The notes under the pieces are model-generated. The model ran no database searches, had not been told where the DNA came from, and saw only the letters and a program-made list of their open reading frames with translations. From Demequina sp. NBRC 110052 (GTDB lineage: Bacteria; Actinomycetota; Actinomycetes; Actinomycetales; Demequinaceae), in NCBI RefSeq assembly GCF_002090075.1, contig NZ_BBRI01000004.1, positions 62,001 through 126,000 on the forward strand: 64,000 nucleotides of DNA, read 5' to 3'. Both the position numbers and the translations under genes were made by a program. Of the stretch, positions 7,626-51,907 are shown in pieces (positions within the stretch are counted from its first letter, which is position 1; every line of letters begins with the position of its first letter).

Positions 7626-10600
7626 ATGAGCGACGCCCGCTATCCGCTCCACCGGCCCACCTCCGAGGTCCCCGCCTCGCCGAGCTTCCCCTCCATCGAG
7701 GAGGACGTGCTCGCGTACTGGAAGGCCGACGGGACGTTCCAGGCGTCGATCGACAACAGGGCCGACGCCGAGGAGTTCGTCTTCTACGACGGACCGCCGT
7801 TCGCCAACGGACTGCCGCACTATGGCCACCTGCTCACCGGCTACGTCAAGGACGTCGTGCCGCGCTTCGAGACGATGCGGGGCAAGAAGGTCGAGCGCCG
7901 CTTCGGGTGGGACACCCACGGTCTGCCTGCCGAGCTCGAGGCCGAGCGCATCCTCGGCATCACGGACAAGGCGCAGATCGAGGAGATGGGCATCGCCCAG
8001 TTCAACAAGGCCTGCAAGGACTCGGTGCTGAAGTACACCAAGGAGTGGGAAGAGTACGTCACCCGCCAGGCCCGCTGGGTCGACTTCGAGAACGACTACA
8101 AGACGCTCGACGTCACCTTCATGGAGTCCGTGATCTGGGGCTTCAAGACGCTGTATGACAAGGGACTCGCGTACGAGGGCTTCCGCGTGCTGCCGTACTG
8201 CTGGCGCGACGAGACGCCGCTGTCCAACCACGAGCTGCGCATGGACGACGACGTGTACGCGATGCGTCAGGACCCGGCGCTCACGGTGACGCTGCCGCTC
8301 GTCGACGGCCCCAGTGACCTCGCGGGCGCCGAGCTGGTCGTGTGGACCACCACGCCGTGGACCCTGCCGTCCAACCTCGCCGCTGCCGTCGGCGCTGATA
8401 TCGACTACGTCGTCGTGCGTCCCGTCGAGGGCGCCTTCGTGGGCCGCCGCCTCGTGTTCGCCGCCTCCCGCGTCGGCGCATACTCCCGCGAGCTCGGAGA
8501 GGGCTACGAGACGCTCGCGACCGTCAAGGGCGCTGACCTCGACGGACTGCAGTACACGCCGCCGTTCCCGCACTTCGTGGGGAACGAGAACGCGCACCGC
8601 GTGTGGGTCGCGGACTTCGTGAGCACCGAGGACGGCACCGGAATGGTCCACCTCGCCCCGTACGGTGAGGACGACCTGCACGTGCTCGGCGAGAAGGGCG
8701 TGCACCCGGTCGAGACCGTCGACGCGAAGGGCCGCTTCACGTCGCTGGTGCCCGAGTACCAGGGCGTCCAGGTGTTCGACGCGAACAAGCAGATCATCAC
8801 TGACCTCAAGGAGCGCGGCGTCGTCGTGCGCCACGAGACCTATGACCACAGCTACCCGCACTGCTGGCGCTGCCGCAACCCGCTGATCTACAAGCCCGTG
8901 AGCTCGTGGTTCATCCGCGTCACGGAGTTCCGCGACCGCATGGTCGAGCTCAACGAGGACATCACGTGGGTGCCCGAGCACATCAAGCACGGCCAGTTCG
9001 GCAAGTGGCTCGAGGGCGCGCGCGACTGGTCGGTCAGCCGCAACCGCTACTTCGGCACGCCCATCCCGGTGTGGGTGTCCGACGACCCTGAGCACCCGCG
9101 CATCGACGTGTATGGCTCGCTGGCCGAGCTCGAGGCCGACTTCGGCCGTCTGCCGCTCGACGAGAACGGCGAGCCCAACCTGCACCGCCCGTACATCGAC
9201 GACCTCACGCGCCCCAACCCGGACGACCCGACCGGCACGTCGACCATGCGCCGCATCCCCGACGTGCTCGACGTGTGGTTCGACTCGGGCTCCATGCCGT
9301 TCGCACAGGTGCACTACCCGTTCGAGAACCGCGAGTGGTTCGACAGCCACAACCCGGCGGACTTCATCGTGGAGTACATCGGGCAGACGCGCGGCTGGTT
9401 CTACGTGATGCACACGCTCGCGTCCGCCCTCTTCGACCGCCCCGCGTTCACCACGTGCATCTCGCACGGCATCGTGCTGGGCGACGACGGCACCAAGATG
9501 TCCAAGTCGCGCCGCAACTACCCGGACGTCAACGAGGTGTTCCACCGCGATGGCTCCGACGCGATGCGCTGGTTCCTCATGGGCTCGCCCATCCTGCGCG
9601 GCGGCAACCTCATCGTCACCGAGCAGGGCATTCGCGAGGGCGTCCGCCAGGTCATGCTTCCGCTGTGGTCCACGTACTACTTCTTCACGCTGTACGCAGG
9701 CGCCGCGAACGGCGGCAAGGGGCTGCTGGGCAAGAAGCTCGTGCCCGAGCGCATCGCAGAACTCCCGGTCATGGACCGCTACGTGCTCGCCAAGACCGCA
9801 GAGTTGATCGACACGGTCACCGCGCAGATGGACGAGTTCGACGTGCCGGGCGCCTCCGACGCGCTCGCGCAGTTCATGGACCTGCTCACGAACTGGTACG
9901 TCCGCACGCAGCGCGACCGCTTCTGGGACGAGGACCGCGACGCGTTCGACACGCTCTACACCGTGCTCGAGTCCGTCTCGCGCCTCGCTGCGCCCCTGCT
10001 GCCGCTGACCACCGAGGAGGTGTGGCGCGGACTCACGGGCGAGCGCTCGGTGCACCTCACCGACTACCCGACCGCACCGTCGGCCTGGCACGACGACACG
10101 CTCGGAGCGGTCATGGACCAGGTGCGCGAGGTCGTCTCCTCCGCCCACGCGCTGCGCAAGAAGGAGCAGATCCGCGTGCGCCAGCCGCTGCCGGCTCTCG
10201 AGGTCGCGGTGGCCGACCCCGCCGCGCTCGCGGACTATGCGGACCTCATCGCGTCGGAGCTCAACGTCAAGGCGGTGCGCCTCACCACGACGGGGGAGTT
10301 CACGGAGGCCAACCCGGTCGAGCGTCGCCTCACGGTGAACGCCCGCGCCGCCGGCCCGCGCATCGGCAAGCAGGTTCAGGAGGCCATCAAGGGCTCCAAG
10401 ACCGGCGACTGGTCCGAGGTCGATGGCGTCGTCACCTCGGGCGGCATCGCGCTCGTCGAGGGCGAGTACGAGCTCGTGACCGTCATCGGCGGTGAAGGCG
10501 ACGACGCGCTGGCTGCCTCCGTGCTGCTCAGCGGCGGCTTCGTGGCGCTCGACACGGCACTGACCCCCGAGCTCGAGGCCGAGGGCTTCGCGCGCGACCT

Positions 10601-10794: not shown

Positions 10795-11727
10795 ATGCCC
10801 GACGCTCGGGGTGAGGGAGAGGGCGGCCCGGCCGACGCGTCGGGCGCCTTCCCCACGCTCGCCGACCTCGTGGGCGGCACCGCCGTGGTGAGGCTTCAGC
10901 GGCTCGCGCCCCAGGGGTCCACGGTGCTCGCGAAGCTGGAGGGGGACAACCCCGCGGGGTCGGTGAAGGACCGCCCGGCGTTCTCGATGATCGCCGCCGC
11001 CGAGCGCGACGGACGCATCGCGCCGGGCTCTCTGATCGTCGAGGCGACCAGCGGCAACACGGGCATCGCGCTCGCGGCCGCCGCCGCAGTGCTGGGCTAC
11101 CGCTTCGTGCTCGTGATCCCCGAGGGCTCGTCGCGCGAACGGATCGACGCGATGCGTGCCTACGGTGCCGAGGTCGTGGAGACGCCCAAGGACTTGGGCA
11201 TGGAGCACGCGCGCGACGTCGCCGAGGAGATCGAGCGCGACCGAGGTGCCGTCCGTCTGGACCAGTTCTCCAATCCCGCCAACCCCGCCTCGCACGTGGA
11301 TGCGACTGCCCGCGAGATCTGGGAGCAGACCCACGGGCGGGTGACGCACGTGGTGTGCACGATGGGCACGACGGGCACGGTCACCGGAGTCTCGCGCGGT
11401 CTCGCCGCGATCACGCCGCACGTCAAGGTGTACGGCGTGCAGCCCGAGCCGGGCGAGTCGATCCCCGGCATTCGCGCGTGGCCCCAGGAGTACCTGCCCG
11501 CGATCTTCGACGACACTCACCTCGCGGGCGTCCGCACGGTCTCCGCGGAGCGCGCCGTCGCCACCGCGCGCGACCTCGCCAAGCGCGAGGGCCTGCTGCT
11601 GGGGCTCAGCGCAGGAGGTGCGGCCGCGATCGCGATCGACCTGGCGGTCGAGGAGCCTGGATCGGTCGTGCTCTTCGTGGCGCCCGACCGTGGCGACCGC
11701 TACCTGTCCACAGGCGTCTTCGGCTGA
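10795..11727 (+). CDS. cysM: Cysteine synthase (CysM/O-acetylserine sulfhydrylase type)
   Basis: 310 residues of the PLP-dependent beta-substitution family. The PLP lysine is K58 in GSVKDRPA, the substrate loop is EATSGNTGI, and the phosphate-binding loop is CTMGTTGTVTG. The short C-terminal end and PEGSSRERIDA loop favour the CysM branch over CysK. It likely makes cysteine from an activated serine and sulfide. The ATG starts 1 nt after the ileS stop. The first 17 residues fall inside a GCCCGACGC/GCGTCGGGC repeat pair and are not family-conserved. A sulfurtransferase gene follows, consistent with sulfur metabolism. Confidence 0.88.
   Translation: MPDARGEGEGGPADASGAFPTLADLVGGTAVVRLQRLAPQGSTVLAKLEGDNPAGSVKDRPAFSMIAAAERDGRIAPGSLIVEATSGNTGIALAAAAAVLGYRFVLVIPEGSSRERIDAMRAYGAEVVETPKDLGMEHARDVAEEIERDRGAVRLDQFSNPANPASHVDATAREIWEQTHGRVTHVVCTMGTTGTVTGVSRGLAAITPHVKVYGVQPEPGESIPGIRAWPQEYLPAIFDDTHLAGVRTVSAERAVATARDLAKREGLLLGLSAGGAAAIAIDLAVEEPGSVVLFVAPDRGDRYLSTGVFG
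10797..10845. repeat. Inverted pair GCCCGACGC / GCGTCGGGC (copy 2)
   Basis: 9-bp arms at 10797-10805 and 10837-10845, with centres 40 bp apart as in copies 1 and 3. It spans the ileS/cysM junction and encodes the non-conserved N-terminus of CysM; the first arm shares its G with the ATG. Confidence 0.6.
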
Positions 11728-11807
11728 CCCGAGCGCCGGGACGGGGCTAGCCTCGAAGGCGACGTCCCCCGCAATGATGACGACCGACGGTGACGAGAGG
11801 TGACGAC

Positions 11808-12635
11808 ATGACCGTGCTGATCACGGCCGCAGAGCTCGCGGAGGAGCGCGCCGGCGCGCACCCGCCCGTGGTGCTGGACGTGCGATGGTCGCTTGCGCAG
11901 CCCGACGGCCGCGCCGAGTTCGAGGCCGGGCACATCCCGGGCGCCGTCTACGTGGACCTCGAGACGGAGTTGTCGACGCCTGGTGAGCCCACCGAGGGCC
12001 GGCACCCCCTGCCCACGCACGAGCGCTTCCAGGAGGTCGCGCGCGCCTGGGGGCTCAACGACGGCGACCGCGTGGTCGTCATGGACGGTGGGACCTCGTT
12101 CGGTGCGGCGCGCGCGTGGTGGCTGCTGCGACATGCAGGGGTCGACGTGCGCATCCTGGACGGAGGGCTGCCCGCGTGGGAGGACCTCGCACTTCCCGTC
12201 GCCGAGGGTCCGTCTGAGCCGTGGGAGGGTGGGATCACGCTCGGCTGGGGCCACATGCCCGTCATCGACGCAGATCAGGCGGCGGAGTTCCCCGGCATGC
12301 TGCTCGACGCGCGAGCTGGCGAGCGGTACCGCGGCGAGGTGGAGCCCATCGACCCGGTGGCAGGCCACATTCCCGGCGCCGTGAGTGCGCCCACCACCGG
12401 CAACGCCGAGCCCGACGGGACGTTCCGCACGCCCGAGGCGATCGCGACGCGCTTCGCCGAGATCGGGTACGAGTCTGGCCCTGTGGCGGTGTACTGCGGC
12501 TCGGGAGTGACGGCCGCGCACCAGATCGCGGCCATGGAGATCGCGGGCCTCACCGGCGCGGCGCTGTACCCCGGCTCATGGTCCGAGTGGTCGAACCAGG
12601 GTAGGGACGTCGTGCGCGGACCCGATCCCCGCTAG
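11808..12635 (+). CDS. Sulfurtransferase, two rhodanese domains (3-mercaptopyruvate type)
   Basis: 275 residues in two rhodanese modules. The first (residues about 1-135) lacks the catalytic Cys. The second has YCGSGVTA with Cys near residue 230. A CGSGVT loop is typical of 3-mercaptopyruvate sulfurtransferases, whereas thiosulfate rhodaneses usually have CRKGVT, so SseA-like activity is favoured. Domain-boundary motifs GHIPGAVYVDLE and GHIPGAVSAPTTG are present. The ATG at 11808 follows GAGAGGTG. It lies 80 bp after the cysteine synthase gene, in the same direction, and probably joins cysteine/sulfur handling. Confidence 0.88.
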   Translation: MTVLITAAELAEERAGAHPPVVLDVRWSLAQPDGRAEFEAGHIPGAVYVDLETELSTPGEPTEGRHPLPTHERFQEVARAWGLNDGDRVVVMDGGTSFGAARAWWLLRHAGVDVRILDGGLPAWEDLALPVAEGPSEPWEGGITLGWGHMPVIDADQAAEFPGMLLDARAGERYRGEVEPIDPVAGHIPGAVSAPTTGNAEPDGTFRTPEAIATRFAEIGYESGPVAVYCGSGVTAAHQIAAMEIAGLTGAALYPGSWSEWSNQGRDVVRGPDPR

Positions 12636-12662
12636 CTTCGACTCCGCGCGTTCGCGAGCGCG

Positions 12663-13556
12663 TCAGCGCGCGAGCATGCGGGTGATCGCCGCCTGCGTGA
12701 GCGAGCGGTCCACGTCGAGGGTGCGGCCGTTGAGCGTGTGCACGGGCCGCAGGAGGAACGCCGAGTCCGCGAGCCACACCGCGTCCGCGCTCGCGAGCTG
12801 CTCCACGGTGATGTCGCGGTACTCGCACGCGAGCCCCTCGGCCTCGCATGCTTCGAACGCGGCCTGCTGCGCGGTGCCGTGCAGCAGGCCGCCGTCCACG
12901 GCGGGCGTCAGCACCGTGCCGCCGGTGCGCAGCAGCACTGTGGAGCGAGGAGCCTCGAGCACGAAGCCGTCCGTCGTCGTGAAGATGACCTCCTCGGCTC
13001 CGAGCGAGGCGGCGTGGCGCAGGGCCGCCATGTTGACGGCGTACGAGAGCGTCTTGGCGCCGATGGTCAGCCAGGGCGCCTGCGTGCCGATGCGCAGCGG
13101 GTAGCCACGCGACAGCATCACCGCCGAGCAGCCGTCGCGACGCGCGTCGGTCGGGTCGGGGAACTCGTATGCGAGCGCGAAGCCCAGCGGGTGGCCCGGC
13201 GGCGTCGAGGCGGCGGCCTCGAGTCCGCGGGTGTAGACCACCTTGCACAGCGCGGTGACTGGCGGCTGGTCGCGGCGCGACAGGAGGTCATCGATCGCCA
13301 TGAGGATCGCGGCACGGAATGCGTCGAGGTCGGGCGCGGGCAGGTCGAGCATGCGTGCCGACTGCGCGAGCCGCTCCAGGTGGGGCTCGAGGTCGTGGAT
13401 CACGCCATGGTGCACGCCCACGGACTCGAAGACGCCGTCGCCGCGTGTGAGCCCCAGATCAGTGGCAGAGGCCAGGGGGGTGGACGGGTCCTCGAGGCGA
13501 GACGGCTGGGCCGGCATGCCGAGCGCGGGCGAGCCGCAGACCACGAGTGAGGACAT
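12663..13556 (-). CDS. Aminotransferase class IV, 4-amino-4-deoxychorismate lyase-like
   Basis: 297 residues of the fold-type IV PLP family. The PLP lysine is probably in TIGAKTLSYAVNM. The sequence begins with a LGLTRGDGVFES element and has the family's late FTTTDGFVLEAPRSTVLL block. Members include PabC (p-aminobenzoate synthesis) and branched-chain or D-amino-acid aminotransferases. The two folC genes downstream on the opposite strand make PabC and folate synthesis attractive, but that is inference. GAAGGGAG precedes the ATG at 13556, and a TAGCGT -10 candidate lies at 13580-13585 on the same strand. Confidence 0.8.
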   Translation of the reverse strand: MSSLVVCGSPALGMPAQPSRLEDPSTPLASATDLGLTRGDGVFESVGVHHGVIHDLEPHLERLAQSARMLDLPAPDLDAFRAAILMAIDDLLSRRDQPPVTALCKVVYTRGLEAAASTPPGHPLGFALAYEFPDPTDARRDGCSAVMLSRGYPLRIGTQAPWLTIGAKTLSYAVNMAALRHAASLGAEEVIFTTTDGFVLEAPRSTVLLRTGGTVLTPAVDGGLLHGTAQQAAFEACEAEGLACEYRDITVEQLASADAVWLADSAFLLRPVHTLNGRTLDVDRSLTQAAITRMLAR

Positions 13557-46201: not shown

Positions 46202-46315
46202 CCTGAGGAACGCCTGAGGATGCCCCAGGGACCCTTGCCCGACGTGCCGCCGCCAGGCGACAGTGGTGCCACGCGCTCGGACGCCTCCGAGTCCCCAAAC
46301 CCGCGAGAGGCCCCC

Positions 46316-47710
46316 ATGACCTCGTCGACGACCCACGGAACCGCGCCCGCCCGCCCGCGGATCCCCACCGCCGACCGTGCACGACGCGCCGCACGCCGCA
46401 CCTGGTGGGCCGACGGCCTCGAGGCAGCGATCTGGTTCGCCGCCGCGATCGGCGTCGCGCTCATGCTGCGCGCGGGCGGCCTGCTCGCCAGCGCGCCGAT
46501 CGACTACGTGTACTCCGCCGGCCGCGCGCTCGGCATCGTGGCCACGGTGCTGATGCTCGCCCAGGTGCTGCTCGTCGCGCGCGCGCCGTTCATCGAACGC
46601 TCCGTCGGCCACGACCGCACCACCGCGCTGCACACGAAGCTCGGCAAGTGGGCCATCGTGCTGATGCTCGCGCACGCCGCCGTCATCACGTCCATGTACG
46701 GCTACTACGACGGACGCGGGCCCTTCGCGCAGGCTGTCGCGCTGTTCACCCAGTCGTGGTTCCTTGCGACCGCCCAGGTCGCACTGGCGCTCTTCCTCGT
46801 GGTGCTCGCGCTGTCGCTCGCGATCGTCAGGCGCCGGTGGCGCTACGAGCGCTGGCACACGGTGCACCTCATCGTCTACGTCGCGGTCGCCGCTGCGGTG
46901 CCGCACCAGTTCCTCGAGGGTTCGACGTTCCGGGGGTTCAGCGCGGCCGCGTGGTACTGGCTCTCGCTGTACGTGGTCGCCTTCGGCGCGCTGCTCGCGT
47001 TCCGCGTGGTGCGGCCGCTCGCGCGGTTGCGTCGTCACGGGACGCACGTCTCGCACGTGCGTCGCGAACCCGACGGCTCCGCGACGATCACGGTGACCGG
47101 GCGCGATCTGGACCGCCTGCGGGCTCAGCCCGGTCAGTTCATGCTGTGGCGCTTCCTCGACGGCACGCGGTGGCGCGAGGCGCACCCCTTCTCGCTGTCG
47201 GCCGCGCCCACGGGCGACGCGCTACGGCTCACCGTGAAGCCGTCCGGCGACCACTCGCGCTCGCTCGCTGACGTCGAGGTCGGCACGAGGGTCATGGTCG
47301 AGGGTCCGCTCGGAGTGTTCACCGACGCCGCGCGGTGCCGTGGCGGCGTGGTGCTTGTCAGCGCGGGCGTGGGCATCACGCCCATGCGCACACTTCTCGA
47401 AGCGCACGACCCGACGGAGCCGTGCGCGGTGATCGTGAGGGCACGCTCGCTCGGCGAGGCGCCGCTGCTCGACGAGATCACTGAGCTCGCGGCACGCGCT
47501 CGGGCCGAGCTCACGGTGCTCATCGGCGAGCGCGGGTCCGGTTGGGCGCCGCGCGACAAGGACGTGTCGCTCGCCGAGCTCGTCGGCGATCTCTCCGATC
47601 GCGACGTGTTCATCTGTGGGCCGGTGCCGTGGGCCGACCAGGTCGAGCGCGACGCGCTCGCGGGCGGAGTCGAGCCCCGTGCCATCCATCGCGAGAGGTT
47701 CGGCTGGTGA
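46316..47710 (+). CDS. Ferric reductase-like flavocytochrome (membrane heme domain + FAD/NAD(P)H domain), copy 1
   Basis: 464 residues. The chosen ATG follows GAGAGG and matches the start of copy 2; an ATG at 46220 would add 32 residues. Six membrane segments carry His residues (HDRTTALHTKLGKW, LAHAAVIT, RWHTVHLIVY, VPHQFLEG) that probably bind two b hemes. The soluble half has HPFSLSAAP for FAD, SAGVGITPMRTLL for NAD(P)H and FICGPVPW near the end. It should move electrons from cytoplasmic NAD(P)H outward, likely to the FMN-binding protein encoded next. Confidence 0.87.
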   Translation: MTSSTTHGTAPARPRIPTADRARRAARRTWWADGLEAAIWFAAAIGVALMLRAGGLLASAPIDYVYSAGRALGIVATVLMLAQVLLVARAPFIERSVGHDRTTALHTKLGKWAIVLMLAHAAVITSMYGYYDGRGPFAQAVALFTQSWFLATAQVALALFLVVLALSLAIVRRRWRYERWHTVHLIVYVAVAAAVPHQFLEGSTFRGFSAAAWYWLSLYVVAFGALLAFRVVRPLARLRRHGTHVSHVRREPDGSATITVTGRDLDRLRAQPGQFMLWRFLDGTRWREAHPFSLSAAPTGDALRLTVKPSGDHSRSLADVEVGTRVMVEGPLGVFTDAARCRGGVVLVSAGVGITPMRTLLEAHDPTEPCAVIVRARSLGEAPLLDEITELAARARAELTVLIGERGSGWAPRDKDVSLAELVGDLSDRDVFICGPVPWADQVERDALAGGVEPRAIHRERFGW

Positions 47711-47738
47711 CTCTCATGGACACGTGGAGGATGGGCGC

Positions 47739-48194
47739 ATGAGAGCGAGCAGGATGGCAGGCGTGGTCGCGAGCTCGGCGGCGATCGTCGCCGCGGGATT
47801 CGCGACAGCGGAGAGAAGCCTTGACACGTCGTTCCTCGATTCCTCCGGGGACGGCGGGTCCAGCGAAGACGCGGGCGAGCCTCAGGACGCGGGGTCGGGC
47901 ACGCCAGACGCGGGCGCGGGCGACACGTTCGACGGACCCGTCGTGACGAACATCAAGGGCGACTTCCAGGCACGCATCGTGGTCGAGGACGGCGTGGTGG
48001 TGGATGTCGTCGCGCTTGCGGCAGGAACGAGCGCGGCTGAGTCGCAGCGAATCAATGCCGAGGCGATCCCCGCGCTCTCCGCGCGGGTGCTGGACGCCCA
48101 GAGCGCGGACGTCGACGCCTATTCGGGAGCGTCCTACAGCTCTCCTGGGTTCCTCGAGTCCGTGGCAGGCGCGTTCGAGGCAGCGGGCCTGTGA
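47739..48194 (+). CDS. Secreted/anchored FMN-binding domain protein, copy 1
   Basis: 151 residues. A hydrophobic N-terminal segment (residues 6-24, signal peptide or anchor) is followed by a Gly/Asp/Ser-rich acidic linker and an FMN_bind domain from about residue 65. The flavinylation motif SGAS lies at residues 129-132 (DAYSGASYSS), where Ser132 would carry covalent FMN attached by ApbE. GGAGG lies 9 nt upstream of the ATG. It is flanked by a membrane reductase and an ApbE gene, which makes an extracytoplasmic electron carrier very likely. Confidence 0.87.
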   Translation: MRASRMAGVVASSAAIVAAGFATAERSLDTSFLDSSGDGGSSEDAGEPQDAGSGTPDAGAGDTFDGPVVTNIKGDFQARIVVEDGVVVDVVALAAGTSAAESQRINAEAIPALSARVLDAQSADVDAYSGASYSSPGFLESVAGAFEAAGL

Positions 48195-48198
48195 CCGC

Positions 48199-49020
48199 GT
48201 GACCGAGGCGGTCGCGCGCGAGGCACGCGCCATGGCGATGGCCTTTCGCGTCAGTGCGCGCGGCGTCGGAGGTCCCGCGCTGGGCACCGCGATGCTCGAC
48301 TTCGAACGCTCTCTGCGCCACGACGAGGCGATGCTCTCGCTGTGGGACGCCCGCAGCCCGCTGAGCATGCTCGCGCGCGGCGAGCTGGACACCGCCGACG
48401 CGCCCGCGGAGGTGCGCGAGGTGCTCGCGCTGTGCGAGTTCTGGGTCGAACGCACCGCCGGCGCGTTCTCGCCGCGGCTCACGGCGCTGGCCGCGCGGGG
48501 CCTGCCGGTGACGTACCCGGAAGGCGCGCCGGACCCCACTGGCCTGGTGAAGACGTGGGCGGTCGCGCGGGCGCTGACGTCTCTCGAAAGCGTCGGGGCC
48601 ACGGGCTGGCTCGTCGATGCCGCCGGCGATGTGTGCGTCGGAGGCGACGGCGCGTGGCGCGTGGGAATCGCTGACCCGTCCCTCACAGGCGACCCGACCG
48701 GCTCTGCCCCGATCACCGTGGTCGAGCTGGGCGGTGACGGGCCTCGTGCGCTTGCGACGTCGGGCGGCGCTCAGGTGCGGGATCACATTTGGGACCCCGA
48801 GACCGGCGAGGTGGCGCGGCACTACCTGCAGGTGAGCGTGCTGGGCGACGATCTCGTCGCATGCGATGCGTGGGCCACGGCGATCGCCGGAGGCGGACCC
48901 CGCGCGCTGACGCGTGCCCACGCGGACGGCTTCGAGGTGCTCGCCGTCACCGGCCGACGCTCGGGCGGGGGCTTCGACGCGGTCGTCACGCCCGGTTGGC
49001 CGGATGCCCGACCTGCGTGA
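48199..49020 (+). CDS. apbE: FAD:protein FMN transferase (ApbE), copy 1
   Basis: 273 residues from a GTG; ATGs at 48232 and 48238 are alternatives. ApbE landmarks: DPTGLVKTWAVARA (substrate/FAD helix), DAAGDVCVGGDGAWRVGI, ALATSGG...DHIWDPETGE and the metal-site CDAWATAI. No signal peptide is evident, unlike many Gram-negative ApbE proteins. It transfers FMN from FAD to a Thr/Ser of FMN-binding proteins, here most likely the neighbour just upstream. Confidence 0.87.
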   Translation: MTEAVAREARAMAMAFRVSARGVGGPALGTAMLDFERSLRHDEAMLSLWDARSPLSMLARGELDTADAPAEVREVLALCEFWVERTAGAFSPRLTALAARGLPVTYPEGAPDPTGLVKTWAVARALTSLESVGATGWLVDAAGDVCVGGDGAWRVGIADPSLTGDPTGSAPITVVELGGDGPRALATSGGAQVRDHIWDPETGEVARHYLQVSVLGDDLVACDAWATAIAGGGPRALTRAHADGFEVLAVTGRRSGGGFDAVVTPGWPDARPA

Positions 49021-49053
49021 GCGCACCCGGCTCCCGGGATACTCCGGAGGGGC

Positions 49054-49071
49054 TCTCAGCGTGCTCTGAGA
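49054..49071. promoter_or_regulatory. Inverted repeat TCTCAG-N6-CTGAGA before the second flavin cassette
   Basis: A perfect 6+6 palindrome in the 118-bp gap before copy 2, overlapping a GAGACT hexamer (49068-49073) that could be a -10. Possible operator. No copy was noticed before cassette 1. Confidence 0.4.
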
Positions 49072-49138
49072 CTTGCGCGGAACAGTGGGGAGTGCCATCG
49101 AGAGATGACGCACTCGCCGCACCCGGGAAGGACCCCGC

Positions 49139-50566
49139 ATGACGCTCACCGCGCCCGCTCCGCCCGCGAGTCACCCTGACCGCGAGGCTCCTGCCGCGAT
49201 CGATGCTCCTCCCCGCGTGAGCGCGCCCGTGGTCCCCCCGGGCGCGGCCCGGCGTCGCGCCCGGGGCGCCGACGCGCTCCAGGCGGCCGTATGGCTCGCC
49301 GCCCTCACCGGCATCGCCTTCATGATCGCCTCCGGCGCGTTCCTCGACGGGGGAGTGTGGGGATGGTTGAGGATGATCAGCCGTGCTCTGGGCATCGTCG
49401 CTGCGGTGATGATGCTCGCGCAGCTGCTGCTCGCCTCTCGCGCGCCGTGGATCGACCGTGTGATCGGCCATGACAAGGCCATCACGCTCCACACCGAGTA
49501 CGGCGTCACGTCGGTGGTGGTGATGCTCCTGCACATCGGTGCCGTGACGGTGGCCGACGCGCACGTCGCTGGTGACAACCCCGCTTCGCAACTGCTGGCG
49601 TACTGGAGCTATGACTGGTTCCTCGCCTGGGCGCTCGTCTCGCTCGCGGCGACCGCGATCGTGCTGGTGACCTCGTTCGCCTCGGCCCGTGCGCGCCTCC
49701 CGTATCACCGATGGCACGCGATCCACCTGCTCAGCTACGTGTCGATCGCGCTCGCGGTTCCTCACCAGTTCCTCCAGGGCGAGACGTTCCGGGGCATGGG
49801 CGCCGCGTGGTGGTTCTGGTTCGCGCTGTGGGTTGGGTCGGGCTCGGCGTTCCTGTTCTGGCGCGTCGTGAAGCCGGTCGTCGTCAACCGTCGCCATCGA
49901 CTCACCGTCAGCGCCCTGCGGCGCGAGAGCGACGGCTCCATCACCGTGACGCTCGCGGGACGCGCCGTGCGCTCGCTCGGAGCGCAGTCGGGCCAGTTCA
50001 TCGGCATCGCCTTCGGCCGGCTCGCATTCGCGCGCGAGATGCACCCGTACTCGCTCTCCGCCGCGCCCGGGGACACGCTGCGCGTCACCGTCAAGCCGCT
50101 CGGTGACGCCTCGGCGAGGATCGCCTCGCTGAAGGTCGGCACGGCGGCGTGGATCGAAGGGCCGCTGGGGATCTTCACGCACGGCTCGCGGTCCGGGCGC
50201 GACCTCGTGCTCATCGGCGCAGGGATCGGGGTGTCGCCCTTGCGCTCGCTGCTCGAGGACGCTCCCGAGGGCGGTCGCATCTCCGTCGTGCTGCGGGGCC
50301 GCTCCCGCGACGAGGTACCGCTGCTCGACGAGATCGAGTCGCTCGCGCGGAAGCGGCGCGCGTCCTATGCACTGCTCGCCGGAGGTCGTGGCCGCACGTG
50401 GGGAACGGCCGATCGCGAGGTCACCCTCGTAGGCGCGATCGCCCGCCCGCACGACACCGACGTGTTCATCTGCGGTCCGCACGAGTGGGGCCGCGTGGTC
50501 CAGGCCGACGCGCTCGCAGCCGGCGTCCCCAAGGAAGCCATCCACCGAGAGGAGTTCGCCTGGTAA
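49139..50566 (+). CDS. Ferric reductase-like flavocytochrome, copy 2
   Basis: 475 residues, colinear with copy 1. Membrane half with HDKAITLHTEYG, LLHIGAVT, RWHAIHLLSY and VPHQFLQG; soluble half with MHPYSLSAAPG, GAGIGVSPLRSLL and FICGPHEWG. GGGAAGGA lies just before the ATG. The two copies share motif order but differ widely in sequence, so the duplication is not recent. The electron acceptor is presumably the FMN-binding protein encoded 13 bp downstream. Confidence 0.87.
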   Translation: MTLTAPAPPASHPDREAPAAIDAPPRVSAPVVPPGAARRRARGADALQAAVWLAALTGIAFMIASGAFLDGGVWGWLRMISRALGIVAAVMMLAQLLLASRAPWIDRVIGHDKAITLHTEYGVTSVVVMLLHIGAVTVADAHVAGDNPASQLLAYWSYDWFLAWALVSLAATAIVLVTSFASARARLPYHRWHAIHLLSYVSIALAVPHQFLQGETFRGMGAAWWFWFALWVGSGSAFLFWRVVKPVVVNRRHRLTVSALRRESDGSITVTLAGRAVRSLGAQSGQFIGIAFGRLAFAREMHPYSLSAAPGDTLRVTVKPLGDASARIASLKVGTAAWIEGPLGIFTHGSRSGRDLVLIGAGIGVSPLRSLLEDAPEGGRISVVLRGRSRDEVPLLDEIESLARKRRASYALLAGGRGRTWGTADREVTLVGAIARPHDTDVFICGPHEWGRVVQADALAAGVPKEAIHREEFAW

Positions 50567-50579
50567 GGGCGGGAACACC

Positions 50580-51137
50580 ATGAAGACCTCACGCGCATTC
50601 ATCGTCGGCGGCACCGCCGCGGCCATCCTCACCACGGGATGGGCCGTCTCGCCGAAGGCCACCGAGGCGGCCCTGAGCGCCTCGGCCTCCACCTCATCCG
50701 CGACCTCATCCTCCGGCTCAGCGACCGGCGCCGCCGGCACGGCAGGCGACTCCGGGTCGAGCGGCTCGAGCGGCACGTCCACGGAGGACTCCACGGACAC
50801 GAGCACGGAGGAGCCCTCGACGGAGGCGAGCGCGACCTCCGACGCGACGGCCGGCACGAGCGGCACCTTCACGGGCGAGTCCGTCCGCACCCGGTATGGG
50901 TCGTTCTCGGTCCAGATCACCACGGTCGACGGTGTGGTCACCGACGTCGCCATGGTCGAGTCAGGTGACAGCGACCACGAGTCCCGCCAGATCAACGCGT
51001 ACGCGCTGCCCACGCTGATGCAGGAAGTGCTCGACACCCAAAGCTCGGACGTGAGTTACATCTCCGGCGCGAGCTACACCTCCGACGGCTTCGCGCAGTC
51101 CGTCGCGGACGCCTTCGCGCAAGCGGGGCTGTCATGA
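50580..51137 (+). CDS. Secreted/anchored FMN-binding domain protein, copy 2
   Basis: 185 residues. An N-terminal signal/anchor segment (residues 5-22) precedes about 75 residues made almost only of Ser, Thr, Gly, Ala, Glu and Asp, a flexible spacer. The FMN_bind domain runs from about residue 97, with flavinylation motif SGAS at 162-165 (YISGASYTSDGF). The long spacer may let the flavin reach across the cell wall region. The stop overlaps the ApbE start (ATGA). Confidence 0.87.
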   Translation: MKTSRAFIVGGTAAAILTTGWAVSPKATEAALSASASTSSATSSSGSATGAAGTAGDSGSSGSSGTSTEDSTDTSTEEPSTEASATSDATAGTSGTFTGESVRTRYGSFSVQITTVDGVVTDVAMVESGDSDHESRQINAYALPTLMQEVLDTQSSDVSYISGASYTSDGFAQSVADAFAQAGLS

Positions 51138-51907
51138 TCCTCACAGCGCGGGCGATGGCCATGGAGTTCACGCTCGACGTGGAGCTCGCCACAGGCGACC
51201 CCGACGATGCCCTGCTCGCGCGCACGATGGCGCACGTGGAGCACGACCTGAGGTGGATCGACGAGGTCTTCTCGACTTTCAAGGCGGGCTCCCATGTCTC
51301 GCGCCTCAACCGCGGTGAGATCTCTCCTGACGATGCTCCGCCCGCCGTCGCGCAGGTACTGGAGCTGTGCGAGAAGTACCGGGAAGAGACCGGCGGCGCG
51401 TTCGACGCGGTCGCTCCCGACGGCACCCTCGACCCCACGGGAATCGTCAAGACGTGGGCGATCGACCGCGTGCGCTGGCGTCTCGACGCGCTGCCGGCGC
51501 GCGGGTGGCTGTGGGGCTGCGGCGGCGACGCGATGGTCTCGGGGCTCGGGCCCGACGCGGGGCCCTGGCGGGTAGGCATCGCTCACCCCGAGGATCGCTC
51601 TCGCCACGTCGGCGCCGTCGAGCTCGGCAGGGGACGCACCGCGATCGCCACCTCGGGCACGACCATCCACGCGCAGCACATCTGGGATCCCGCCGCGGGC
51701 GACTCAGCGTCCTCGACGCGCTACGTGCAGGCGACCGTCATCGGCACTGACCTGATCGAGTGCGACGCGTGGGCGACGGCGATCGTCGCTCGCGGCGAGT
51801 CCGCCGCGCTCGCGGCCCAGGAGCGGGGACTCGACGTGCTCGCGCTGCGCGTGGAGGGGGGCCGCGTGGTCGCCGAGCGCTCGCCCGGGTGGGCCTGGGC
51901 AGCCTGA
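51134..51907 (+). CDS. apbE: FAD:protein FMN transferase (ApbE), copy 2
   Basis: 257 residues, translationally coupled to the FMN-binding protein. Motifs: FSTFKAGSHVSRLNRGE (ApbE N-terminal S-x-x-x-x-S-x-x-x-x-L-N), DPTGIVKTWAIDRV, WGCGGDAMVSG, AIATSGTTIHAQHIWDP and CDAWATAIV. It retains the S.....S.L N start better than copy 1. Expected to attach FMN to the SGAS motif of the preceding product. Confidence 0.88.
   Translation: MILTARAMAMEFTLDVELATGDPDDALLARTMAHVEHDLRWIDEVFSTFKAGSHVSRLNRGEISPDDAPPAVAQVLELCEKYREETGGAFDAVAPDGTLDPTGIVKTWAIDRVRWRLDALPARGWLWGCGGDAMVSGLGPDAGPWRVGIAHPEDRSRHVGAVELGRGRTAIATSGTTIHAQHIWDPAAGDSASSTRYVQATVIGTDLIECDAWATAIVARGESAALAAQERGLDVLALRVEGGRVVAERSPGWAWAA

Follow-up and report, generated by a model that had tools for sequence, protein, structure and literature searches.

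Two consecutive sets of the same three genes in one bacterial genome raise the question of what such a pair does and how it arose. The locus lies in a 64,000-nucleotide stretch of Demequina sp. NBRC 110052 (contig NZ_BBRI01000004.1, positions 62,001 to 126,000; hereafter the window, in whose numbering coordinates are given), at 46316–51907, where two three-gene operons on the plus strand are flanked by an amidohydrolase gene and rpsP, each with the order A (membrane flavocytochrome), B (protein with a domain binding flavin mononucleotide, FMN; Pfam FMN_bind) and C (ApbE flavin transferase). Each operon is read here, with a probability of about 0.8, as one electron-export wire of the published MsrQ-like type, leading from reduced nicotinamide adenine dinucleotide (phosphate), NAD(P)H, to a tethered external FMN, and the two as old paralogous modules that are probably switched on together. 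The reading rests on gene content, conserved ligands and motifs, the fold match of A, gene trees and a repeat upstream of the operons.

A1 (46316–47710, 464 amino acids), a membrane flavocytochrome resembling NADPH oxidases (NOX) and MsrQ, with a Ferric_reduct domain and a part for flavin adenine dinucleotide (FAD) and NAD(P), is followed by B1 (47739–48194, 151 amino acids) and C1 (48199–49020, 273 amino acids, its GTG start chosen by us). The second operon comprises the paralogous NOX-like A2 (49139–50566, 475 amino acids), B2 (50580–51137, 185 amino acids) and C2 (51134–51907, 257 amino acids), the start of which overlaps the stop of B2. Pfam scores of the first and second copies were 63.8 and 60.5 bits for Ferric_reduct (cut-off 28), 25.4 and 25.9 bits for FMN_bind (cut-off 22), and 88.8 and 113.4 bits for ApbE (cut-off 25.6). 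From A1 to C2 the intergenic gaps measure 28, 4, 118, 13 and −4 bp, the single long one preceding A2, and over the aligned parts the copies share 47% (A), 50% (B) and 41% (C) identity. A sequence-only reading of this DNA had described two successive, diverged cassettes for ApbE-dependent extracytoplasmic flavinylated electron transfer, and place, Pfam assignment in both operons and divergence of the six genes all bear it out. FMN_bind and ApbE genes beyond the two each at this locus were not found in the 2.61-Mb genome (99.99% complete); a third Ferric_reduct match is weak, under the cut-off and, judged from its translation, an SdhC-like protein. With two FMN_bind and two ApbE genes at a single locus, the genome offers a self-contained test case; within the genus, single, double and mixed sets all occur. 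Three questions can be tested in it: where ApbE acts, whether Ser is a full natural FMN acceptor, and whether the two wires of a pair serve as co-regulated spares or have specialised roles.

Its gene content places the locus among the MsrQ-like flavinylation clusters described from Actinobacteria, since it combines a PF01794 protein carrying two putative heme sites with an FMN-binding gene and apbE. Reported were 1797 such clusters in 1468 genomes, broadly from Actinobacteria; apbE and an FMN-binding gene are their typical members, and PF00175 is present in 1437 (Meheust et al. 2021, PMC8238504). Shared with them are the clustering of a Ferric_reduct membrane protein bearing a putative C-terminal FAD/NAD part with an FMN_bind protein and apbE, and the mainly actinobacterial distribution. 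The window differs in that two paralogous sets lie adjacent, each with its own ApbE, in that these ApbEs have no visible signal peptide, and in that Ser replaces Thr as acceptor in Demequinaceae, which the published motif allows. The section of PMC8238504 on MsrQ-like clusters does not mention paired cassettes, and 'tandem' and 'duplicat' are absent from its main text. The class is defined by bioinformatics, with a role, iron reduction, suggested for some members only (PMC8238504).

According to the published reading of the class (PMC8238504), which is followed here, the cytosolic part of A would oxidise NAD(P)H via FAD, and the electrons would traverse the membrane via two b hemes ligated by four histidines and pass to FMN that ApbE would have bound covalently to the SGAS serine of B. 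B, located outside the cell and tethered by an N-terminal anchor and a disordered spacer, would then pass them to an acceptor, for which small diffusible oxidants (Fe(III) chelates, quinones or O2) are the likeliest candidates.

Homologs of A were detected in 76 of 248 genomes sampled from the order (E ≤ 1e-25) and in 47/47 genomes of the family (E ≤ 1e-20). Outside the family, 57 order-level genomes had a match; 20 of these, picked among the higher-ranking ones and with a view to variety, supplied the 20 outgroup loci. In 84/84 A proteins there are four histidines suited to holding two b hemes (H118, H132, H196 and H209 in A2), in pairs spaced 14 and 13 residues; the FAD and NAD(P) motif positions are kept in 81–84 of the 84, and a C-terminal Trp in 68. 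Across the C-terminal region, FAD/NAD(P) reductases were matched both in sequence and in fold. In the AlphaFold model of A2 (predicted local distance difference test, pLDDT, 81.2), the membrane part has six long helices, and the fold is that of NOX with a putative bis-heme core. Binding of heme and FAD by A is thus suggested by conserved ligands and motifs and by the modelled fold.

The best fold match of this model was SpNOX (E 6.8e-18, template modelling score 0.63/0.74, 402 columns), followed by the human phagocyte NADPH oxidase and mouse DUOX1. With such nearest solved folds, A might itself be an NADPH oxidase serving external superoxide formation or O2 removal, with B as an O2-reducing flavin or side arm and no relay. 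The related flavin protein SaFMN3 of Streptomyces azureus (midpoint potential −184 mV) can use O2 in its reduced form (PMC10339131), which would suit that role. What A shares with SpNOX and the eukaryotic NOX/DUOX enzymes is the fold and the two heme-histidine pairs; unlike them, it is encoded beside an FMN_bind protein and ApbE, in 20/20 outgroup loci and in 34/35 Demequinaceae loci with a complete interval. An oxidase alone would need neither partner, which weakens this alternative, and it is considered distinctly unlikely.

For the electron-export wire, neighbouring genes were of no help in naming the acceptor, as the sequence-only reading had anticipated: the interval between the amidohydrolase gene and rpsP contains nothing but A, B and C genes, and among the outgroup neighbours regulator genes alone stood out, at a few loci. 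An MsrP-type protein was dropped as partner, as PF00174 had no match in this genome (control genomes matched in 9/14), MsrQ of the MsrPQ system being a homologous heme membrane protein (PMC8238504). The wires might instead be assimilatory ferric reductases serving an iron importer. VIT1 occurs in 153 of the 1797 MsrQ-like clusters, for some of which the authors propose iron reduction (PMC8238504), and a VIT1 gene is also present in this genome; it is placed, however, on contig C2 and the cassettes on C4, and no importer gene shares the interval with A, B and C, so that a role in iron assimilation appears possible but unlikely.

Within B, the SGAS motif occupies residues 129–132 of B1 (acceptor Ser132) and 162–165 of B2 (acceptor Ser165), and the surrounding DAYSGAS of B1 is a full fit to D-x-x-[S/T]-G-A-[S/T]. 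Both proteins have an uncharged hydrophobic N-terminal run, by our heuristic an export segment, and one FMN_bind domain each, so neither is a multi-flavinylated protein. The spacer, its ends set by us, is acidic in B1 (38 residues, 9 Ser+Thr, 10 Asp+Glu) and, in agreement with what had been read from the sequence, much longer and Ser/Thr-rich in B2 (69 residues, 35 Ser+Thr). By sequence, the closest solved FMN-binding domain to that of B2 is 8P2A, a domain of the covalently flavinylated SaFMN3. The latter combines three domains in a single polypeptide and is flavinylated through a threonyl link (PMC10339131), in contrast to the one domain each and the Ser of B1 and B2; what is added in relatives of the window are further B genes, not domains.

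In a 99-row alignment of B proteins, the FMN acceptor position was Ser in 74/76 Demequinaceae rows and Thr in 23/23 outgroup rows, the two non-Ser family rows both coming from locus L008 (SRAT, and one row seemingly misaligned). The ApbE motifs differ alongside: DAWAT was read in 36/40 family rows against DV[LWY]AT in 17/21 outgroup rows, and MAM in 31/40 against MGT or MGL in 10/21, where the pattern failed to read 9 outgroup rows. Because this contrast amounts to one branch, co-adaptation of acceptor and transferase is no more than a suggestion. The residue at −3 follows the paralog class, being D/E in B1 and single-ABC B (16/16), S/T in cassette-2 B (9/9), G in the first B of B-A-A-B-C loci (15/16), mixed in their later B (14 E, 7 D, 4 A, 1 G), and D in 12/23 outgroup rows.

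Lipobox-bearing B proteins are present in species with the B-A-A-B-C order. In ten B-A-A-B-B-C loci (L022–L027, L029–L031, L037), the B gene directly following the second A encodes a protein with a lipobox and a short spacer, and the next B gene one with a long spacer in 8/10; the two possibly form a short-to-long tether series. In cassette 2 of L007 (D. salsinemoris, 11429–13417), FMN_bind proteins are encoded by three separate genes, and their spacers measure about 129, 109 and 26 residues.

The ApbE motifs ATSG, HIWDP and DAWAT are kept in C1 and C2 and align with those of solved ApbEs. C1 is the more diverged, with the lower Pfam score, and its SRLNRG and GGAFD motifs are altered in the window, as would fit a decaying cassette, most likely cassette 1, beside a single working wire. 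Decay is nevertheless very improbable: all six reading frames are open, cassette 1 is retained in all five genomes with the order ABCABC, and the Ser, His and Asp motifs of C1 are kept in five of these five.

No signal peptide was seen in C1 or C2; hydrophobic 19-mers above 1.6 were absent from both, which sets them, by this heuristic, apart from secreted lipoprotein ApbEs. The export calls rest on our own heuristics and not on a signal-peptide predictor. None of 61 ApbEs had a 15-mer above 2.0 on the Kyte-Doolittle scale, but many B proteins likewise stayed under this value, and a second measure was therefore applied, namely a run of at least 16 residues free of D, E, K, R, H, N and Q within the first 60 residues. 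Such a run occurred in 4/61 ApbEs and in 96/99 B proteins; the remaining three (L023, L025 and L031) probably have start codons placed too far upstream, since anchors are visible there. The distance from the B stop to the first ApbE core motif was 41–64 codons in 37/39 Demequinaceae cases (94 and 97 in the other two) and 40–83 codons in 21 outgroup cases, with 45 in C2.

Because 57/61 ApbEs lack the uncharged stretch that 96/99 partner B proteins carry, it is tentatively suggested, at somewhat less than even odds, that in these actinobacterial operons (in Demequinaceae with the Ser acceptor) flavinylation takes place in the cytosol, with FAD drawn from the pool there, and B is exported later with the flavin attached. 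If so, a flavin exporter would not be needed, unlike in ApbE systems with a secreted transferase. Most ApbEs are seemingly secreted, and a cytosolic Klebsiella ApbE acts on a soluble fumarate reductase (PMC12052999); a statement of cytosolic flavinylation of an exported protein was not found in the literature searched, which does not prove its absence from print. D. salsinemoris holds a third, far more canonical ApbE match (252.7 bits) adjoining another FMN_bind match (G021:C16:239478–242242), on a contig other than that of its cassettes, i.e. a second kind of flavinylation system.

The order A-B-C was present in 20/20 outgroup loci, L091 having a second B and L107 a second A. In Demequinaceae, gene orders were counted by us in 35 loci with the whole amidohydrolase–rpsP interval, with the result of 5 ABCABC, 12 single ABC, 16 B-A-A-B-(B)-C with one ApbE, 1 B-A-B-C and 1 A alone. 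The five ABCABC loci are the window, L006 (Demequina sp. SYSU T00b26), L007, L077 and L078, with one to three B genes in cassette 2. L028 and L034 look frameshifted; L028 was kept in this count and left out of the trees. A single ApbE gene is present in 38/44 genomes of the genus, 11 of them with three FMN_bind matches (genes counted by us), so that several FMN_bind proteins do not require several ApbEs. An explanation of the two ApbEs by dedicated specificity was disfavoured by these 11/44 genomes and by the single-ABC cassettes, in which a C2-like ApbE is paired with an FMN_bind protein nearer to B1.

For the origin of the pair, gene trees were calculated by 'quick' searches without bootstraps, and approximately unbiased (AU) tests were run on reduced row sets. 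Duplicates (L079, L080, L081, L085, L086, L088), fragments (L040, L043) and short pieces of L034, L038 and L087 were dropped; for the AU tests, long-branch or incomplete rows of A (L035, L039, L042, L082, L087), B (L008_B2, L033_B1, L039, L041_B2, L042, L082, L087) and C (L039, L082) were also removed and eight outgroup loci retained. A and B of L008 were assigned to copy 2, and the 'single' groups were defined with the trees already in view.

Tandem duplication of an ABC cassette within this lineage, with subsequent divergence, would account for the identical gene order, the 41–50% identity between the copies and the similar repeat 5' of both operons. Under the models used, however, AU tests rejected a clade uniting the first and second copies from the five ABCABC genomes, for A with p 6.4e-4, for C with p 3.7e-5 and for B, where few columns were available, with p 0.021. 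Instead, A1 groups with the second A of the B-A-A-B-C loci (94 in the full, 97 in the reduced tree) and C2 with the single-ABC ApbE (99.9). The duplication in this lineage, as the sequence-only reading had assumed it, is extremely improbable in view of these non-sister copies and discordant partners, and the two wires appear to be old paralogous Demequinaceae modules, not a recent duplication.

The further groupings concern the single-ABC cassette, which looks like a mosaic, since its ApbE sides with C2, its B with B1 and its A, less firmly, with A2. Its ApbE was rejected as partner of C1 (AU p 1.8e-4); C2 with the B-A-A-B-C ApbE was likewise rejected (p 2.8e-4), and C1 with that ApbE was not rejected (p 0.28). 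Its B groups with B1 (80.9, not starred), and a grouping with B2 was rejected (p 0.0021). In the full B tree, a starred group (98, 43 rows) unites B1 with the single B and with the later B of B-A-A-B-C and excludes B2; this group is missing from the reduced tree, yet was not rejected (p 0.42). The single-ABC A groups with A2 (90 in the full, 58 in the reduced tree), its grouping with A1 being rejected (p 0.012).

An ffh tree set the five ABCABC genomes apart from other Demequina (27 rows, 98). For L015 and L016, ffh nests among the single-ABC species and the A of an extra B-A module among the B-A-A-B-C species, and this conflict suggests transfer at the locus; the extra module lies at about 7900–9844 and its probable donor is of the B-A-A-B-C type. 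As relatives carry either a single ABC or a B-A-A-B-(B)-C array, the latter with one ApbE, modules seem to have been lost, gained or recombined here, and the simplest account is an old module array whose parts were differentially lost, gained and recombined. As to whether the cassettes had been assembled independently with unrelated partners, the second half falls away, the modules being homologous, while the first half stands in so far as they were not inherited as a fixed block.

Both operons of the window are preceded on the plus strand by an 11-bp-phased repeat of the form C[ACT][CG]AG-N6-C[ACT][CG]AG, which reads CTGAG-N6-CTGAG at 46203–46218 (97 bp 5' of A1) and CTCAG-N6-CTGAG at 49055–49070 (68 bp 5' of A2). 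It recurs at both places in L006 and L078, at both in L077 (the second in the wider form) and at the second place in L007, and CACAG-N6-CACAG-like forms precede many outgroup operons. As the half-site was widened after examples had been seen, the comparison of spacings is the fair control: in 44 Demequinaceae upstream regions, spacing 6 gave 26 matches (25 regions) and the other spacings from 0 to 16 at most 3 each; in 22 outgroup regions, it gave 15 matches (13 regions) and the others at most 5, and the reversed-control repeat reached at most 2. Taken by themselves, the two exact CTSAG sites of the window are no rarity (7/100 shuffles had as many), and a regulon search with CTSAGN6CTSAG was without enrichment (13 genome sites, 11 for the reversed control).

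The 11-bp period presumably fits an OmpR-type regulator, and a search for its ortholog in the genome gave seven matches of 78–97 bits and no unique candidate. The phased repeat before both operons suggests common regulation, in which both would probably be induced together. The proposal of two acceptors or two redox ranges, drawn from the duplication, gained no positive support, with the same repeat 5' of both operons and genomes in which several B genes share one ApbE. In the outgroup, judged from the sequences, an OmpR-type regulator and a kinase adjoin ABC in L098 and L103, and a similar regulator occurs in L105.

Several observations count against the reading as two co-switched electron-export wires. 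The NAD(P) domain (PF00175) reaches only 21.5 bits in A1 and 17.5 bits in A2, under the Pfam cut-off of 22. The SYISGAS of B2 fits [S/T]GA[S/T] and lacks the Asp of the longer motif; this −3 Asp is also absent in 11/23 outgroup B rows, and its loss had minor effects only in published ApbE tests (PMC12052999). ApbE accepts Ser yet prefers Thr (PMC12052999), and the B2 model is weak (pLDDT 55). The ApbEs have no visible export signal while their target B looks exported, so that either B would be flavinylated before export, or ApbE would exit by an unusual route, or the heuristics would miss a signal. The upstream repeat is lacking 5' of cassette 1 in L007, as it is in 12/12 single-ABC regions.

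Between 46100 and 52200, Sigma-70-type promoters were not detected, and the one terminator-like match, inside A2, is at chance level. In Demequina lignilytica (L032:2862–9833), a 2323-amino-acid open frame with Malectin and Ig-like domains sits between both A genes.

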